Shown here: positions 2-10,537 of the stretch, piece by piece
Numbering within the stretch: the stretch's first letter is position 1
Layout: each line of letters starts with the position of its first letter
NCBI GenBank assembly: GCA_036939355.1
Contig: JALLAP010000681.1
Span: forward strand, 1-11,046
Length of the DNA: 11,046 nt
Source: Thalassiosira profunda
Taxonomy: Eukaryota > Bacillariophyta > Thalassiosirophyceae > Thalassiosirales > Thalassiosiraceae
Direction: 5' to 3'
Made by a program: the position numbers and the translations under genes
Notes under the pieces: model-generated
Seen by the model: only the letters and a program-made list of their open reading frames with translations
What the model was told of the DNA's origin: nothing
The model's database searches: none

Positions 2-1531
2 TTGACTTACTCCAGCGTTGTCTCGAGGGACAGCGTCAAGATTGCCTTCCTAATCGCAGCCTTGAATGGACTAGACGTGAGCGCGTGCGACATTGGCAAT
101 GCCTATCTCAACGCGCCTTGTCGAGAAAAGATTTGGTTCGAGGCTGGCGTCGAATGCGGACCAGAGCTGCAGGGTAAAGCCTGCAAGCTCGTGCGCGCGC
201 TGTATGGATTAAAGAGCAGCGGCGCGTCCTGGCGCAAAATGTTCTCTGATTTCATTCAGAAGGAGTTGGGCTTCACTCCCACGAAAGCTGACCCTGATGT
301 CTACTTCAGGAGGGCGAGGAAAGGGCCCACTGCCGCAGAGCAGGAGCTCGACGCCCATCGAAAAGGGTGCGTCTACTCGAAGCCGTCTGGTGTCGAGATG
401 CCAACAGACGATTACTACGAGTACCTCCTGGTCTACGTCGACGACGTCATGCTAGTCAGCCACGACCCTGTCCCAACCATGCGAAAGATTGGGAAGCGGT
501 TCGAGATTAAGAACGATGAGATTGGGCCACCCAAGGTCTACCTCGGCGCTGGCATTTGCAAAGTTGCCAGCGACGAGGATGGCTCCGAATGCTGGAGCAT
601 GGAGAGCCACAAGTACGTCAAGGCAGCAGTCCAAACTGTAAAGGATCTGCTGGCAGAGGATGGTCGAGAGCTCAAGGGCAAAATCGGCAGCAAGACTGGC
701 CCTTTGCCCACCAACTACGAGCCTGAACTCGACGTGACGAATGAGCTGAACGAGGAGAAGTCCTCGCGCTTTCGCCAGCTTATAGGCATCCTCAGGTGGG
801 CTTGCGAGTTGGGACGCCTCGATATCCAAATCGAGGTATCACTCTTGTCTCAGTTTCAAGCGTCGCCCAGAGAAGGGCATCTCGAGGCGCTGTATCATAT
901 ATTCGCCTACCTGAATCATCACCCTCTGAAGCGTATTATATTCGACCCTAAGTTGCCTGAGGTGAACGAGGGTGCTTTCACAATAGCAGACTGGACCGAT
1001 TTCTATGGGGAAGTGGAGGAGGAGGATCCTCCACACATGCCAGAGCCGCTGGGCAACCCCGTCATGATGTCCTGCTTCGTCGATGCAAATCACGCTGGAA
1101 ACAAAGTGACGAGGCGATCCCATACTGGCATCCTCCTCATGCTGAACAATGCGCCGATCCAAGTCTTCTGCAAGCGACAGAATACTGTGGAGTCTAGCAC
1201 TTATGGTTCAGAACTGGTGGCGATGAGAATCGCCAGAGACTTGATATCTGCTTTGAGAATCAAGCTCAAATGGTTCGGCGTTCCTATCCTTGGACCCACG
1301 AACGTGTTTTGCGACAACAACGCCGTGGTATTGAATACCAGCAAGCCTGATTCGACGCTGTCGAAGAAGCACAATGCGATCAACTATCACATTTGCAGAG
1401 AGGCTGTCGCAGCTGGTATCATGAGGGTCGCAAAGGAGGACACGCTGACGAACATTGCGGACGCCTTTACGAAGCTACTGTCCTACTCGAGGAAAATGTA
1501 TCTGCTTGGTGGTTTGCTTTCCAATAGGTGA
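2..1531 (+). CDS. Ty1/copia retrotransposon pol, 3' part (reverse transcriptase + RNase H), 5' partial
   Basis: This is the C-terminal 509 residues of a copia-type polyprotein, cut by the left window edge; the first codon is TTG inside an open frame, so it is not a start. Reverse transcriptase copies the element RNA to DNA in virus-like particles, and RNase H removes the RNA template. The fragment starts within the RT palm (TYSSVVSRDS, then the AYLNAP and RALYGLKSSG signatures). The catalytic YVDD lies at residues 145-148. The copia connection region (RQLIGILRWAC to the AYLNHHP stretch) follows at about 258-308. RNase H shows D361 (FVDANHAG), E404 (YGSELVAMR), D438 (FCDNNAVV) and D487 (NIADAFTK), so all four acidic residues are present. 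Protease and integrase would lie upstream, as expected for the copia order. No stop or frameshift interrupts 509 codons, which suggests a young copy. Family certain; assignment to a diatom copia clade is inferred from recalled similarity. Confidence 0.95.
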   Translation: MTYSSVVSRDSVKIAFLIAALNGLDVSACDIGNAYLNAPCREKIWFEAGVECGPELQGKACKLVRALYGLKSSGASWRKMFSDFIQKELGFTPTKADPDVYFRRARKGPTAAEQELDAHRKGCVYSKPSGVEMPTDDYYEYLLVYVDDVMLVSHDPVPTMRKIGKRFEIKNDEIGPPKVYLGAGICKVASDEDGSECWSMESHKYVKAAVQTVKDLLAEDGRELKGKIGSKTGPLPTNYEPELDVTNELNEEKSSRFRQLIGILRWACELGRLDIQIEVSLLSQFQASPREGHLEALYHIFAYLNHHPLKRIIFDPKLPEVNEGAFTIADWTDFYGEVEEEDPPHMPEPLGNPVMMSCFVDANHAGNKVTRRSHTGILLMLNNAPIQVFCKRQNTVESSTYGSELVAMRIARDLISALRIKLKWFGVPILGPTNVFCDNNAVVLNTSKPDSTLSKKHNAINYHICREAVAAGIMRVAKEDTLTNIADAFTKLLSYSRKMYLLGGLLSNR

Positions 1532-2145: not shown

Positions 2146-2304
2146 AAATTTGGTTGCCTAAGTAGGTATGTCAGTCTGAGTGCCTCGGATTTGCTTCCCA
2201 GGGGAAAAAGAAAAGGTAGAGTCCAAGCTACTTACCATACGTACAATAGTCCACTATTCACAGCCACACAGAGCGCACACAGCCAAGCACGTGCATCGGC
2301 CAAG
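2146..2304 (+). promoter_or_regulatory. Probable promoter and 5' UTR of the HRDC gene
   Basis: About 160 bp separate the end of the telomere-like array from the HRDC start codon. The sequence holds TACGTAC at 2238-2244, 60 nt upstream of the ATG, a motif related to those in the two divergent promoters farther right. No clear TATA box is seen. The promoter therefore either sits against the repeat array or overlaps it. Confidence 0.35.
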
Positions 2305-2961
2305 ATGTCGTCGGACCACGATCTATCGCCGTACGAGGCTGCTCGGTTGGGTAGGATTCGACGCAATGAAGAGAAACTTAGGAGTTTGGGGTTGCTCGGC
2401 AGCGGTGCAGTGAAACCGAAAGCGCAGCCGCGCAAGAAGGCGCAGCCAAGGAAACGGCCCAAGCAGACGCAGCTGCCGTCGAGGTCCAGCAAGCGCCTGC
2501 GGCTACTGAAGGAAGGAGTGAAGGAGGAGGATGCAAAAGGAGCCGATTCCTCCGAGGAAGAGGAGAACGCAGCCAGCTCGGCGCCAGAAGATGATACAGT
2601 GACTTATGCAAACATACCGCAGGAGCCGGATCATTTGGACGACAGTGAATTCCAGGTGTACGTCGCTTTACGGGCGTGGAGGCTCCGTCGCAAAAACGAG
2701 CTTGACGTAGAGCCCTACAAGATATGCCAAAACCGGACTCTTTGCGAGTTGCTTAGGAAGAGGAGGAACGATAGTGATTTTGCATCCAGCGGAATGGGCG
2801 AGGAAGCTGTGGAGCAGGATTTGCTGTCGGTGTGGGGCATTGGACCGTCAAAGGCAGCACAGGGTGGTTTCGGATGGGAAATGTTGGAAGTGGTGAATGG
2901 AGAGGAGAATATGAAGCTACTGCAGCTCTCGAGGGAGAACGTTCCCAAGAAAGATGACTGA
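2305..2961 (+). CDS. Small nuclear HRDC-domain protein
   Basis: The protein has 218 residues. The HRDC fold spans about 114-197: DSEFQVYVALRAWRLRRKNE, then NRTLCELL, and a GIGPSKA turn at 178-184. HRDC is the auxiliary nucleic-acid-binding domain of RecQ helicases and RNase D, but neither a helicase nor a nuclease domain is present. The N-terminus has a short motif (residues 10-30, YEAARLGRIRRNEEKLRSLG) of the form YE..R...I.RN...L..LGL, which I recall from chromatin and DNA-repair proteins of algae and plants. Residues 37-69 are strongly basic and look like a nuclear localisation signal, and 74-97 are acidic. The ATG at 2305 has A at -3 and begins just before the conserved N-terminal motif, so I prefer it to the in-frame ATG 114 nt upstream. 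A role in DNA repair or chromatin is inference. The gene is convergent with the phosphoesterase gene, 22 bp between stops. Confidence 0.85.
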   Translation: MSSDHDLSPYEAARLGRIRRNEEKLRSLGLLGSGAVKPKAQPRKKAQPRKRPKQTQLPSRSSKRLRLLKEGVKEEDAKGADSSEEEENAASSAPEDDTVTYANIPQEPDHLDDSEFQVYVALRAWRLRRKNELDVEPYKICQNRTLCELLRKRRNDSDFASSGMGEEAVEQDLLSVWGIGPSKAAQGGFGWEMLEVVNGEENMKLLQLSRENVPKKDD

Positions 2962-4158: not shown

Positions 4159-4698
4159 ATGGTACACCTGGAGACCCTCGTGGCGCTGCTGGCGGCGCCG
4201 TTGGGTGACGTCGCCGCGTTTTCCCCGTCGGTACACCAACGCTCGCCATTGCAACGCAGTTCAGTGATCCCATCTCCGTCCGCCCTACCTATGTGCATCT
4301 GCATCCACTGCGCCCGCGTCACCAACTGCTCCGCCTATCACTTCGTGGAGGAGCAGCACTCGCAGCCGCACATCAACAAAAATCCAACGTGGGAGCCGCG
4401 GAACGGCAGTCCGACCATCGAGGTCCACATCCGTCCCGATGAGGATGCCGCGGCGCAGAATGAGTTGGGGAAAATGTGGGCAGAGCACGAGGACCAGACG
4501 CGGATAGCGGAGGAAGCTTCGGGTGGGGATGCAGGAGATTTTGCCTTGGTTGGGGAGAAGTCGTACGACATCAGTGGAACAATCAGCTACGAGTACGACG
4601 TTGTTGCGTGCGAGGACTTTGTGGAGGAAAAAGATGCGTGGGTACGGAACATGCCGGAGGAGATCCGGATTGCGAATCCCGACTTTGTGCCGACGTAA
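4159..4698 (+). CDS. ycf34: Nuclear-encoded, plastid-targeted Ycf34 homologue
   Basis: The 179-residue protein splits cleanly. Residues 45-179 are a Ycf34 core starting at an internal Met: MCICIHCARVTNCSAYH, then EEQHSQPH, PTIEVHI (85-91) and YEYDVVACEDF (144-154). Cysteines 46, 48, 51, 57 and 151 are the conserved set; in cyanobacteria Ycf34 is reported to hold an iron-sulfur cluster and to affect photosynthetic electron transport. Residues 1-44 are extra: a hydrophobic start (LVALLAAPLG), then DVAA-FSPSVHQRS, which fits a signal peptide cut before Phe followed by a Ser/Arg-rich transit peptide, as in diatom plastid proteins. An acidic insertion (about 93-140) separates the two core blocks. 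The ATG at 4159 has A at -3. Ycf34 is plastid-encoded in red algae, so this copy implies transfer to the nucleus. The gene is convergent with NEIL3 (49 bp). Confidence 0.9.
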   Translation: MVHLETLVALLAAPLGDVAAFSPSVHQRSPLQRSSVIPSPSALPMCICIHCARVTNCSAYHFVEEQHSQPHINKNPTWEPRNGSPTIEVHIRPDEDAAAQNELGKMWAEHEDQTRIAEEASGGDAGDFALVGEKSYDISGTISYEYDVVACEDFVEEKDAWVRNMPEEIRIANPDFVPT

Positions 4699-4747: not shown

Positions 4748-6040
4748 TTACAGAAGTGGCGTCAGCAAACATCGGAGAGGCCCGAGTTGTTTGTCGGAGG
4801 CCCACTCAAAGTGACCGCAGCCGTTGCTACTCGATCCGCCTTTGCTTTTGTCGCCCGATGCGCAGCACAAAAACCACCGGCCTCCGCTCCGTTCCGTCTT
4901 GGACACCCGCAAAACTGTCTTCTTTCCGCAGCGGCATTGAGAGAATGTACTATCCGCCCACAAAAAGTACTGACAATCCTTTCTGGTGCATGTGAAGAAT
5001 ATCCGCAATCCATTGTTTCCGTTCCGAGCGCGACGCAGCTTGAGTGATGTGTGTCCATGCTGCGGGCAGTGGGCTTGCTGCCCGTTCGATTCTGTCGTTG
5101 TTCTGTTTGCACTGCCAGGAGCTGATGCCTGCGCCCTGTTCTCTCCCGACGCCACTTGCAGTGGTTGGCAAACGGTACACCAAAAGGTCACTCGGCTCAT
5201 GAAGGCGTGGCCTTGGCCAGATCCGTTGGCCTCTGATCCGCCCATCTTTTGCATTTTGACAGACACACCATTGCATGTACCGCATGTTGTTTGATTGTAG
5301 ACTAGTTTCGTCCCCGCCCTTCCGGTCTTTAGCCAGTCCATCGAGTATTTCCGTGTGTGGCGGATGACCCTGCGCAACTCGCCATCTGTCAAAGAGCTCA
5401 CAACTCTCCTCGGATCGACCCTGCTTCGATGCAGAGATTCTATTTTGATGATGTTGCCGGCTCCTGGCATCAAATTCTGATTGAGCAATGCGTCTGCAAT
5501 GATCAAGTTGTTGCCCGATTGTCGAATAGCAGTAAATACATCCTGGGCGTTGAACGAAGTAGAGCACACGTCCCGCGAACGAAGATTCGTCAGTTTGATG
5601 CGTGCGTTTCTCGCAGAGACGGGCGACACTGTCGTTTCCCAGGCCTCCAGGACGGTGTAGTTTGACGCGTCGCCGTCTGTCACAAAGTATAACCTGAGGG
5701 TTGGATCGCTCTTTTGTCTCCAGCCAGATGATTTGTTCTGCGTGTCGCCCGCTTTTGCCTTCCGCACGCGCATGCTGCCGTTCATGCCAAAGTGCAGCCG
5801 TACCCCTACGTCTGCCGCCGTCTCTGAGTGTGGATGGGTAGGCGCATCCTCGAATGCAGTGAAAATGAGGAAGAGTTCCTTCCCCACTGTGAAAGCCTCT
5901 GCGAGGGTGAGGCCGGCCAAACTTCCTGCGAGCTGAGGAGGAAGCGCTGGCGATGCAGGAGCAACGTCGGACGTTGCTTTTTTGCCGACCGCCGCTTGCA
6001 CCTTCGTCCCATTCCGGGTGCAACCGGGGCCCTCCACCAT
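4748..6040 (-). CDS. NEIL3: NEIL3-like DNA glycosylase/AP lyase with two GRF zinc fingers
   Basis: The 430-residue protein belongs to the Fpg/Nei family, which excises oxidised bases; animal NEIL3 also unhooks interstrand crosslinks at stalled forks. The N-terminus MVEGPGC gives Val2 as the catalytic amine after Met removal, a NEIL3 hallmark (others use Pro2), and fixes the start at 6040. E3 is conserved and K54 in [10 protein letters not shown] fits the family lysine. [10 protein letters not shown] (83-92) is the central Fpg/Nei strand. The H2TH region spans about 168-238, with PGAGN (192-196). A C4 zinc finger (C253, C256, C288, C291) follows, with Arg in [10 protein letters not shown]. Two GRF fingers end the protein: C325/H328/C351/C356 with FLW, and C369 or C371/C392/C408 with FEW. 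The RanBP2-type finger that human NEIL3 has between these parts is absent; a Ser/Ala-rich linker (294-324) replaces it. The gene is divergent from the response regulator, 282 bp. Confidence 0.93.
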
Positions 6041-6322
6041 CGAGTCCCACTGTGCCGGAAGGGCGGGTGGGTTGGAGGGGGTGGCGGGTAGGGGAGGGTG
6101 GAGGCGGCCGCTGGAGGGCGGGGACGCGACCGTTGGTGTTTGTTGTGGTTGTGTTGTTGCAAAAAGCTACCCACTACCGTACCTTCGTACGTACGTACGT
6201 ACCTAACTCTTCTCCATCAGCAGCTCAAGCCAGCACCATCACTCTCCGGCGTGGCTGCGCTCGCAGGCCCACTTCGTCGGGGCGTCGGTCCCTTCGGCGG
6301 CGCCCATCGTCTCATTGCTGAT
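6041..6322. promoter_or_regulatory. Divergent promoter between NEIL3-like and response regulator genes
   Basis: This 282-bp region separates two head-to-head starts. It is G-rich near NEIL3 (GGGTGGGTTGGAGGGGG and similar, about 6063-6100) and contains (GTAC)4 at 6187-6202 running into CTAAC. The in-frame ATG at 6098 would add 75 residues of low-complexity sequence to the response regulator, so I treat that stretch as untranslated. Confidence 0.5.
6187..6205 (+). promoter_or_regulatory. (GTAC)4 run containing GTACGTACCTA
   Basis: Four GTAC units (6187-6202) end in CTA. The last 11 bases (6195-6205) match the motif upstream of Ycf34 exactly. The run ends 117 nt before the response regulator ATG. 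It may be a binding site for a palindrome-reading factor, or just a small microsatellite. Confidence 0.35.
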
Positions 6323-7432
6323 ATGGTGGCATCGACTGGCGTCCTCTTCGTGCTCCTGGCCTGCCTCTTCTCGTTGGCGGTTCCCTTTTCATATGAGGCA
6401 CATTGCAATTGTATCCCAGGATGTAGAATCGGAAGAAGACCCTCGTCGCTGCCGATTGCCAAGAGCGGCGACGCATCCACTGGAGATGAAGGCAATCGAT
6501 CAAAGTCGAGAGAAAAGTGGATACTCATAATCGAAGACGACGACAATCTGAGAAAGGCTATGGGCAAATTCATTGCAAAGGAAGGGGGTTACTCCGTAAC
6601 GGGCGTTGCGGATGCCCGATCTGGACTGCTGATATGCCGTGGCATCGTGCGCCCAAACGCCAAACGCACTCGGTTCGCCTTTGACCGCAATTTTACTGAT
6701 GACATCCCAAAGAATGCAACGCAGATTGGCAGACGACCTGACTGCCTTGTGCTTGATGTTAGCAATGGAATCGAGCTCATGGAGACAATGCGTGCTGATC
6801 CTGTGCTGGAGAGCTTGCCGGTGGTCCTACTTACTTCCAGCAAAGTGGAGGATCGCCTTGCCGGATATGATGCTGGGGCGGATGCTTATGTTGCAAAACC
6901 GTTTGATCCGAATGAGCTGATGGCCGTAATTGAAGGTCTTCTGCTTCGAAACGACAGATATCGGGTGAGTGGATATGGAACGGGGAGAGAAGACAAACAG
7001 ACAGGGATGCAGCGGAATGTCTATGCAAGTCTGAAGCGCGAACTGTCCGCCATCAAAGAGCTCTTGGAGGTGCTAGATTATATACCTTCGCCCCCAGATC
7101 GGAATGATTCCAGAGACCAGATATCGGCGAGCTCTGTCAGTCGAGATATTGCTGAGATTAGAGGTGCCATCGAAAGCCTGAACACAAACGGACAACCTCA
7201 ATCAAAGCCCGATGATACTGCCAAGCGACCATACCAATACGCACAATCGAATTTCTCGCCAGAGGACACTGAAATAATGGAGCTGGTTGCTACAGGGTTG
7301 AGCAACAATGATATTGCGGCAGAGATGGACAGCAGTGTAAGCAAGATCGAGAAACGAATGACGGCAATGTTCAAGGAAGCCGGAGTCCGGAAGCGAGCAG
7401 ACCTTGTTGAATGGTGGCAAATGAACCAATGA
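6323..7432 (+). CDS. Presequence-bearing (plastid?) NarL/FixJ-type response regulator, Ycf29-like
   Basis: The 369-residue protein has a receiver domain and a DNA-binding domain. Residues 1-25 (MVASTGVLFVLLACLFSLAV then PFSYE) are a good signal peptide, followed by a basic, Ser-rich stretch to about 65, suggesting import to the plastid. The receiver spans about 66-208: acidic pocket E71/D72/D73, phospho-acceptor D145 (CLVLD), T171 (LLTSS), K192 (AKPFD). The C-terminal LuxR-type helix-turn-helix spans about 311-365 (GLSNNDIAAEM, KRADLVEWW). The architecture matches cyanobacterial NarL-family regulators and plastid Ycf29, so it may be a nuclear-relocated Ycf29. Two oddities: about 28 extra residues precede D145 (around 103-138), and the usual M-P-x-M-D loop after it is missing. 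I chose ATG 6323 over 6098 because the signal peptide begins there. No histidine kinase is nearby. It is convergent with the NELF-B-like gene, 32 bp between stops. Confidence 0.88.
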   Translation: MVASTGVLFVLLACLFSLAVPFSYEAHCNCIPGCRIGRRPSSLPIAKSGDASTGDEGNRSKSREKWILIIEDDDNLRKAMGKFIAKEGGYSVTGVADARSGLLICRGIVRPNAKRTRFAFDRNFTDDIPKNATQIGRRPDCLVLDVSNGIELMETMRADPVLESLPVVLLTSSKVEDRLAGYDAGADAYVAKPFDPNELMAVIEGLLLRNDRYRVSGYGTGREDKQTGMQRNVYASLKRELSAIKELLEVLDYIPSPPDRNDSRDQISASSVSRDIAEIRGAIESLNTNGQPQSKPDDTAKRPYQYAQSNFSPEDTEIMELVATGLSNNDIAAEMDSSVSKIEKRMTAMFKEAGVRKRADLVEWWQMNQ

Positions 7433-7464
7433 GGCACCGATGCAAATTAACAACAACAAGAGGG

Positions 7465-10400
7465 CTACGTTTGCGCTGCGTCAGTATCCAAAGCGATCCC
7501 AATCTTTTCCTTCCATTCTCGGGCCCTCGCTTCGGGTACAATCGCGAGCATCTTGGTGCACTGCTCTTTGACGGCTGCAAACGAATCATCGTCACTGGTC
7601 CACAACTTTGCAAAGGTTTCACTTTTCTCCCCAACTTGCACCCTGCTCGATGCTGCAACCGCTTCCTCGCTGAGGCTGAGAAGCAAATCCCTGGGAAGAA
7701 CGAGGTTGCCCAATGCTGACCACTGCGACAAGGAGGATAATGCGTTAGAAGAGTGGTGAATCCATCTGCACCAAATAGGAGTGACATCTCACCTCATTCA
7801 ACAAATGCATGAAGCATTCGTGCAGAGGCGAACAAATGGCTGTCGTTGCAGATGCGCCTTCTGCTCGCAACCACTTGATCATGAACCCTGTCACTAAATC
7901 ACGGATGCTGTGCGGGAGCTTCGACTTGTACCTCAACAAGGCATTCGTGAGGGACACGAAGAAGGGACGCTCATTCAGCATGTTTCCGCCTGACAGTTTG
8001 TCCAGTGCCGCAATGAATCTAGGAAGTTGGTGCTTGATCGCAGTTTCACTGGTATTGCCAGGCTGCAGCAGGTGGGTGAGAGCACCCTCGACAACCGCCC
8101 GAATGTCAAACAACGATGAAGTCCCGTCCCACTCATCGGTCATCACTTCTGGCCGCTGGCAAGCATCCTGGAGGGCGGCATCGTACAAATCTCCATTGAT
8201 CGACATGCGGCGATCCAGGTCGGCATCCAGCAACAGTTTCGACACGAGAGGAAGGCAATTGCGCGTCGACTCGTAGTACGGGCTGAACTCCTCTCCCTCC
8301 ATCAACACTTTTCGGAGGCCTGCGTCAGGGATGAAGCTTTGCTTTCCTTTCAGCGCACACAACTGCGTTGAAATGCGACCAATATTCAGCAGCTGAAACA
8401 GTGAAGGCAGCACAGGGTGTCCCCCTGGAACGCTCTTCTCTTTCAACACGTCCGCTCTCAGAATCTTTTGGACTCGGTCCAGCAATACCCTCACCACGAA
8501 AGGATCGGCGAGCAGCATCGACGCGAGGCATTGCAGACTAGGCACTTCGAGCTCCGTCTTGCGGCGTTTCCAAGGAGGGAGCGGCTTGACGTCTTGTGCA
8601 GTGAGATTGCTGATTGCTGCGTCCTCTTTCTCTTTGCCATCTTTTGTGCGTTTCGTCGGTGTTGACGCAGATGGTTTGGTGCCTTTGCCCGGGGCGAAGG
8701 CCAAAGGTGGAGGTTTGGGCTTTTGTTTCAGACGTTTCTTCCGCTTCGCCCCTTCTATCTTCAAGGTGGACTTGGATTGGGGATAGATAGTTTCCCTCCA
8801 AATCTTCTTCTGCCGGTTCGCCTCGGTTCTGAACCACTGCCCCGCTGCGCCGACGTTGTATTTGCAACAGTTCGAGAACAGGAGCAACGTGTCATCCTTG
8901 AACTCGTCGATGCTCCTGTAGGCAGACGAAAGCATTTTCTGTTCCATGGTGCGGATGCACATGGGCGTTTCGATGATGGAGCTGTAGCCGGGAGCAATCT
9001 CGTCCGTGACGGGGTTGAGAAAGAGGCCCTGGTAATCGTTCTCTTTCAGCAAGGAAATGGCCTTCTTCACCACTCGTTGCAAAAGCTTCCTCTCGAATTC
9101 GGAGTCGTCCGCGGGCAGATCTGGAAACAGCGTCGGAGCCTTTTTGAGGCTCAGCTTGATCTTCGTCCCCTCGGCCCGATCTTTGCCGGGTGGCGATGGA
9201 CGTGCGTGCGCTTTCTCTGACTCGGATGGGCGGAAGATGGTGCGAAGACAGCCTTGCACTTGAGCAATGGCACTGTCCGAGATGGAGCCAGATTGAACTG
9301 ACGCATCAAGAATGCGAGCCATGATGTCCAAAACTTCGTACGTGCGGGGCAGATGGCCAAAGGATAGGAGTACATCTGCCACCATAGTGCAAGAGAGATT
9401 TGTCGCCCCTCCAAGAAGAGACGCCTGTGAGGCGACATCCGTGGCTGTGGTTGTTTCGGCGTTCTCTGTGTCTGGTGTTGTCTTCTTGGCACATCCGATC
9501 CCACCGCCTTTCGCTGCGTGTTCGGCAATGAGCATATCCAGAACCGCCCCCAGCAACTTTGGGCGGCTCCCAACCGTTTCTTTGATGGATGCAATGGCAA
9601 CGGCCGAGAAAGGATCTGTCTTTTCTTCGGTATTGTTCTCCGTGTTTGACGCCGCCTTGGTGACCCCCATCGAGGCCAATGTGCTCATCGTTTCCCCCGC
9701 ATTCCCCGACGCTTCGGCCTCTTTTGCTCCCACCATTCTCCTGAATTTCGTGGCAAACCTTCGCTCGGACATCGTCCCAACAAATGCCAAATCTGCCTCC
9801 CTCTCCAATGATAAATCCGACAAGTAGCTGGCGACAGGCGCTCGTATCATATCCGCCAAGATGGTGCAGCCCCCGAGCGTCAACTCCTCTTCGCTCGATT
9901 CTCCTTTGCCAACCGATTCCACCTTGGCATCCCAATCCGCCTCCCACACCAGCCTTTGCAAATGAGGGCCCAGCTGGCCCACCAAATCGGCATTTCGCAG
10001 CTCGGTCGATTCGCTCTTCTTCGCCCCCAGTCGCCGCAGCATGGGCACCGGAGTAAAGTCCCCCAATCGCTTGAGCACGCACACCAACACGGGACGCAGT
10101 TCCGGCACGTCCCGAAATTGCCACGCCGACTTGAGCAGGTGCAACAACGCCCGGAGCCCCGCCTCCCCGGGGGTGGAGGGAGGCCGCGGCACGCCGTTGG
10201 ACCCGATCGTCAGGGGCGCGATCGGCATCCGGCCGATCTCGTCCTCGATCGCCGACCGCAGCCCCGCCCCCACCCGCGTGTGCACCTCGTGCCGCGACAC
10301 CCCCAAGTGGGACAAAAAGTCGAGGGCCGGGGAGGGGTCCAATTCTTGCGCGGGCACCGTCCCGAAGGCCTTGGAGAAGGCGGCGTGGAGGCCGTTGGAC

Positions 10401-10537
10401 TGCTGGAAGTCGGCGATGGTCGTGCGGGCGTCGTTCGAGTTGCGGAAGGCCTGTCGGATGTGCCGCTTGGCCGCGGGGCCGCAGGGAAAATTGGCGGGGG
10501 TGGCCGCCGCCGCGGCGGCTGGCGGTGTCGTCGTCAT
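7465..10537 (-). CDS. NELFB: NELF-B/COBRA1 homologue with embedded bromodomain (two exons: 10537-7793 and 7722-7465)
   Basis: Spliced, this gives 1000 residues. NELF-B is a subunit of the negative elongation factor, which holds RNA polymerase II in promoter-proximal pause. Residues about 24-436 follow the N-terminal half of NELF-B: DFQQSNGL, LDFLSHLGVSRHEVH, then VPELRPVLVCVLKRL and LQRLVWEADW. Residues about 665-1000 follow the C-terminal half: LASMLLADPFVVRVLLDRVQ, HPVLPSLFQLLNIG and a C-terminal DDSFAAVKEQCTKML. Between them sits a bromodomain (about 483-588) with NPVTDEIAPGYSSII, and N561 in CCKYN as the acetyl-lysine anchor, followed by a basic, Lys/Pro-rich stretch (593-660). Human NELF-B has about 580 residues and no bromodomain. 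The start ATG at 10537 has A at -3 and precedes an Ala-rich leader; an in-frame ATG at 10726 adds only low-complexity sequence. NELF-B identity rests on recalled sequence similarity in several blocks. Confidence 0.82.
7723..7792 (-). other. 70-nt intron in the NELF-B-like gene
   Basis: On the minus strand the donor is GAG|GTGAGA and the acceptor CTTGTCGCAG|TGG. The intron is phase 0 and joins LLNE to WSALGN. The joined exon adds 85 residues that continue the C-terminal NELF-B-like similarity. Without splicing, the first exon would read 15 more residues (VRCHSYLVQMDSPLF) and stop. This is the only convincing intron in the window. Confidence 0.85.
8774..9091 (-). other. Bromodomain within the NELF-B-like protein
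   Basis: These bases encode residues 483-588. The sequence shows the ZA loop (LFLNPVTDEIAPGYSSIIET, including Pro509, Tyr518 and the usual TPM turn), the helix-B region (YRSIDEFKDDTLLLFSNCCK) and the canonical acetyl-lysine-binding Asn at 561. It is in one uninterrupted frame with the flanking NELF-B-like halves, so it is not an artefact of joining exons. Confidence 0.93.

Follow-up and report, generated by a model that had tools for sequence, protein, structure and literature searches.

Can one polypeptide both belong to the machinery that pauses RNA polymerase II (Pol II) and read the acetylation of chromatin? This question was raised by a gene on contig JALLAP010000681.1 of Thalassiosira profunda, an 11-kb contig (11,046 nucleotides, hereafter the window) from a 21.8-Mb draft genome. 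The gene was on the minus strand, where its two exons ran from position 10537 down to 7465, and it encoded 1000 residues plus a stop codon. Its two flanks resembled NELF-B, and a complete bromodomain was located between them. We consider it probable that this diatom NELF-B homologue holds or releases paused Pol II depending on the acetylation state of the first nucleosome downstream. The closest named relative was P0001 (Thalassiosira profunda, a diatom), whose C flank was 98% identical. The parts of the gene were as follows.

7793..10537, minus strand: exon 1, residues 1-915, from the open frame, the splice site and the T. profunda homologue
7723..7792, minus strand: predicted intron of 70 nt, GT-AG, phase 0, after LLNE, from the sequence and with the junction as in P0001
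7465..7722, minus strand: exon 2, residues 916-1000 and stop, also matched by P0001
9242..10474, minus strand: N flank, residues 22-432, aligned with human NELF-B 11-288
9107..9241, minus strand: linker 1, residues 433-477, mostly predicted disordered, with a predicted local distance difference test (pLDDT) value below 50 for 436-477 in the P0001 model
8726..9106, minus strand: bromodomain and long last helix, residues 478-604, with the Pfam stretch at 491-561
8984-8986, minus strand: Tyr518 of the ZA loop, by alignment position
8855..8857, minus strand: Asn561, the acetyl-lysine asparagine by alignment position
8525..8725, minus strand: linker 2, residues 605-671, basic and mostly predicted disordered, with pLDDT below 50 for 605-672 in the P0001 model
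7465..8524, minus strand: C flank, residues 672-1000, with the intron within it, corresponding to NELF-B from human residue 301 onward

The exon junction, between LLNE and WSALGN, was identical in P0001. In P0111, P0112 and P0114, all distant relatives, the gene model continued past LLNE at the same position with an intron-like stretch that was seemingly unspliced. The bromodomain was entirely inside exon 1, a single open exon of 915 codons. A first-pass annotation of this DNA had placed the gene at 7465..10537, and the open frame, the GT-AG site and the P0001 junction were consistent with that placement. A search of the same genome with P0001 gave the NELF-B/bromodomain gene, a partial second copy on contig C1056 and five weak bromodomain-region matches; no bromodomain-free NELF-B was found by this search. 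The second copy, at the contig end (L006:230-1693), was diverged, with 87% identity to window 6323-7660 over 1345 bp. It stopped at the contig end within NELF-B exon 2, and is either another haplotype or a duplicate.

The flanks were compared with NELF-B by profile methods. An alignment of five diverged relatives (A2), from which the bromodomain was excised, was used for a profile search of the PDB. Seven distinct sequences were obtained up to E 10. Six were NELF-B, with E values of 6.7e-10 to 9.4e-10, and the seventh was an acetylglutamate kinase (E 1.6). The matched blocks were collinear with NELF-B, profile 38-112 corresponding to chain 45-124 and 313-434 to 227-349, and the second block spanned the excision site without a break. 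Each flank was also aligned separately with human NELF-B by hhalign, using profiles of 113 sequences per flank and 100 shuffles per flank as the control. The N flank matched 11-288 with a probability of 97.4 and E 1.3e-11 (best shuffle E 0.035), and the C flank matched 301-383 with E 8.1e-4 (best shuffle E 0.018). The scores were 90.8 and 34.8, respectively, compared with 24.0 and 25.3 for the best shuffles, and the bromodomain profile gave nothing against NELF-B (E 0.54). These results indicated that the similarity of the flanks exceeded chance. Pfam COBRA1 matched four of the five bromodomain-excised members, with a best E of 0.006. P0001 with the bromodomain excised gave 15.7 bits at a curated cut-off of 22, which is a detection threshold and no biological definition. 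The uncut P0112 gave 22.8 bits with no stretch passing alone, and its bromodomain gave 66.8 bits. By fold comparison, the C-terminal half matched the helical-repeat fold of NELF-B. The assignment of both halves to NELF-B, which the first-pass annotation had made from recall, was supported by profile and fold methods, in order and with the bromodomain between. The fold comparison stood for the C-terminal half; for the N-terminal half it consisted of the full-length alignment of a low-confidence model.

Several observations weighed against this assignment. The hhalign probability of the C flank was only 24. COBRA1 was not found at E<=1 in a single-sequence Pfam scan of the window protein, and its cut-off was reached by only one of ten uncut proteins scanned, P0112. 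When each flank alone was used for phmmer against the PDB, no NELF-B chain was found, and one de novo designed protein was returned (E 0.33). Three-sequence profiles were built from natural N-only and C-only fragments; one search gave NELF-B at E 0.65-1.3 (six matches, all NELF-B), and the other gave two NapD matches and did not find NELF-B. In the case of structure, the C-flank Foldseek search gave no match under E 0.001, and the full-length P0001 model was of low confidence, with pLDDT 61 and a predicted template modelling (TM) score of 0.36. Its TM-scores against NELF-B were 0.13-0.27, with a root-mean-square deviation near 27. A Foldseek search with this low-confidence model ranked NELF-B first in a 972-column alignment. 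In a repeat of the search, the matches listed were all bromodomains, with no NELF-B among them.

The architecture was followed across relatives by searches that scored about 8,000 candidates sharing most words. PF00439 was present in all 35 proteins of the first search, and in 113 of the best 120 of 158 matches in the larger NELF-B search. Among 126 distinct proteins retrieved, 115 had the N flank first, then the bromodomain and then the C flank. The remaining 11 were partial (four with bromodomain and C flank, four with N flank and bromodomain, three with N flank alone), and none of the 126 had both flanks without the bromodomain. The named members included Thalassiosira, Discostella, Cyclotella, Skeletonema, Nitzschia, Seminavis and Cylindrotheca, which we take to cover centric and pennate diatoms. 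Among the listed NELF-B matches bearing an organism name, all were diatoms. All three parts were contained in P0010, P0063, P0064 and P0070, which came from the MMETSP transcriptome source. The first-pass annotation had allowed that the bromodomain and the flanks might belong to separate mRNAs; because these relatives hold the architecture in a single protein, that objection failed for the family. Two side observations were made on these proteins. P0010 and P0013, the latter named Skeletonema, had an extra N-terminal stretch at residues about 33-97 that matched RWD below the cut-off of 22.8 bits (18.7 and 17 bits, respectively). The models of P0118, P0119, P0122, P0123 and P0125 began or ended within the bromodomain at an apparent intron, and the bromodomain itself may be spliced in some diatoms.

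In the window protein, PF00439 gave 62.5 bits (cut-off 21.7) over residues 491-561. Asn561, Tyr560 and Tyr518 were invariant in all 114 aligned relatives; we take Asn561 and the ZA-loop Tyr518 to act in acetyl-lysine binding. This was consistent with the earlier description of a complete bromodomain, with its acetyl-lysine asparagine, between NELF-B halves. The bromodomain was the best-conserved segment, its mean identity to P0001 being 54%, compared with 43% and 45% in the two flanks. By sequence, the human bromodomains closest to it were those of BRD9 and BRD7, for which PDB titles give several acyl-lysine ligands. In the hhalign alignment, human NELF-B 289-300 was replaced by P0001 residues 433-671. 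The available part of a crosslinking study gave human NELF-B modules of 85-291, 291-438 and 438-519, and suggested the middle one as a hinge (PMC4940160). Since the insertion was located between human residues 288 and 301 and the crosslink boundary at 291, the bromodomain site corresponded to the boundary of the first two modules.

A NELF-C/D partner in the same genome, a point raised by the first-pass annotation, was found on contig C1039, where TH1 matched with E 1.0e-18 and 1.1e-13.

L003:1080-3926 (C1039), minus strand: NELF-C/D, a frame of 948 residues with two N-terminal WW domains followed by TH1 (PF00397 1.2e-19; TH1 3.3e-35 over the whole frame)

Homologues of this protein at E 0.001 or better numbered 51 in a search that likewise scored about 8,000 candidates sharing most words. 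TH1 was present in 50 of them, and WW in 38 of these 50. The 12 TH1 homologues without WW may be partial because all were shorter (571-723 residues). In the brown alga Pylaiella littoralis, a homologue matched at E 1.7e-13 had TH1 (1e-57) and two WW stretches, so the WW-bearing NELF-C/D extended beyond diatoms. To our knowledge, animal NELF-C/D has no WW domain. NELF-A_N, HEXIM and the COBRA1 profile gave no match in this genome, and their controls gave no match either. Spt5-NGN was not found in this genome, though four archaeal controls matched. Since Spt5 is described as universal among eukaryotes in the available text of PMC11482795, this miss was ascribed to the draft genome or to the exon-wise search, and absence is not claimed.

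In the mechanism that we propose, NELF-B and NELF-C/D would pair as in animals, and the bromodomain, on flexible linkers, would project from the NELF-B lobe. It would grip the acetylated histone tails of the first downstream nucleosome, and this binding would alter the residence time of NELF on Pol II. The WW domains of NELF-C/D would possibly bind proline-rich partners. In mammalian complexes, NELF is near the downstream nucleosome, and one binding mode turns the NELF-BE lobe to downstream DNA, as given in the available part of PMC11881899. According to the available text of PMC11482795, NELF-B and NELF-C/D form an old eukaryotic core whose presence accompanies some pausing, NELF-E is strongly evidenced only in metazoans, and the HDAg domain of NELF-A occurs only in animals and Capsaspora. 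From the mammalian placement of NELF and the ancient B-C/D core, we infer the grip of the bromodomain on acetylated nucleosome tails, and with it a link between pausing and acetylation. Through the inserted bromodomain, the pausing machinery would probably be able to detect acetylated chromatin directly. For the direction of the effect, we lean towards acetylation-dependent retention at active promoters rather than pause release.

Alternatively, the protein could be a genuine NELF-B whose bromodomain is functional but has an acetylated non-histone ligand (for instance a NELF subunit, Pol II or an elongation kinase), and so acts as a switch of the elongation machinery and no chromatin reader. 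The conserved pocket residues would suit any acetyl-lysine ligand, and the several acyl-lysine ligands of BRD9 and BRD7 would also fit this reading. However, the closeness of NELF to the nucleosome in the mammalian complex (PMC11881899, in its available part) favours histones, and although nothing counts directly against a non-histone ligand, we regard it as rather unlikely. It is improbable that the bromodomain is a structural spacer or docking surface whose acetyl-lysine reading has been lost in the cell. Bromodomains that do not bind acetyl-lysine are known, but the three invariant residues and the high conservation of this segment argue for a retained function. A protein that is NELF-B by descent and has come to serve a process other than pausing, such as chromatin remodelling or transcription termination, was judged highly improbable. 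The BRD7/9-like domain, the database names of some relatives (bromodomain-containing protein 7 or 7/9) and a pausing-independent role of NELF-B in animals (PMC10591015, in its available part) would fit it; however, the flanks matched NELF-B and not BRD7/9, and a NELF-C/D gene was present in the genome. An orthologue of BRD7/9 was rejected on the same match of the flanks. A gene-model artefact, in which adjacent genes are read as one protein, would fit the low scores that the flanks gave in single-sequence searches and was rejected as having a negligible chance, since one exon is open throughout, the order is kept in relatives from several sources and the transcriptome-sourced proteins hold all three parts.

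Compared with human and animal NELF-B (COBRA1, PF06209), the diatom protein was similar in both flanks by profile and in the C flank by fold, the order was the same, and NELF-C/D was present. It differed where the N-terminal module meets the middle one: about 12 residues there gave way to a bromodomain of roughly 100 residues flanked by long linkers. Human NELF-B, of 580 residues, was covered by the flanks alone and has no bromodomain, and we know of no other animal NELF-B that has one. In the case of BRD7 and BRD9, which are SWI/SNF subunits, the ZA-loop and Asn positions were the same, whereas the remainder of the diatom protein matched NELF-B. BRD4 with P-TEFb is a separate reader protein that links acetylated chromatin to Pol II pausing and helps pause release. 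The same joining is predicted for the diatom, but its reader is within the pausing factor itself. The NELF core of unicellular eukaryotes (PMC11482795) was similar in consisting of B and C/D with no requirement for animal-type NELF-A and NELF-E, whereas in the diatom a bromodomain is present in NELF-B and WW domains are present in NELF-C/D. Bromodomains were unmentioned in the available main text of that source. Among the matches listed from open-licence literature, no title or abstract start concerned a bromodomain in NELF-B or WW in NELF-C/D, and open-licence literature on NELF and diatoms gave nothing related.

The other features of the window were as follows.

6098-7432, plus strand: response regulator of bacterial type with a LuxR/GerE helix-turn-helix (PF00072, PF00196), encoded on this nuclear contig and hydrophobic over a stretch close to its start; perhaps a plastid regulator relocated to the nucleus
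4748-6040, minus strand: DNA glycosylase of the Fpg/Nei type (H2TH) that carries GRF zinc fingers and resembles NEIL3 in its composition
4159-4698, plus strand: nuclear-encoded Ycf34 (PF10718, E 4.9e-26), a protein known from chloroplast genomes
2191-2961, plus strand: short HRDC-domain protein (PF00570, E 7.3e-07)
1800-2160, intergenic: several telomere-like words (TTAGGGTT, AACCCTA), found by eye
2-1531, plus strand: piece resembling a copia-type retrotransposon polyprotein, found by eye

NELF is commonly treated as an animal pausing factor, and it was called metazoan-specific in the available part of a 2025 paper (PMC11881899). Tentatively, the diatom NELF core could be reader-equipped, with the NELF-B bromodomain for acetylated nucleosomes and the tandem WW domains of NELF-C/D for partners rich in proline, for example the Pol II tail. 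Alone, these two subunits might then sense the state of chromatin and polymerase, a role played in animals by NELF-A, NELF-E and BRD4, and this would be an independent, non-animal route to regulated Pol II pausing. Taken with the reader-bearing NELF-B, the WW-bearing NELF-C/D suggests that ochrophyte algae elaborated pausing control by an independent path. A change at a single pocket residue, in one gene of an alga that can be cultured, could part chromatin sensing from pausing. An acetyl-lysine reader built into NELF-B, and conserved across centric and pennate diatoms, would connect pausing with histone acetylation in a single polypeptide, for which animals use separate proteins.
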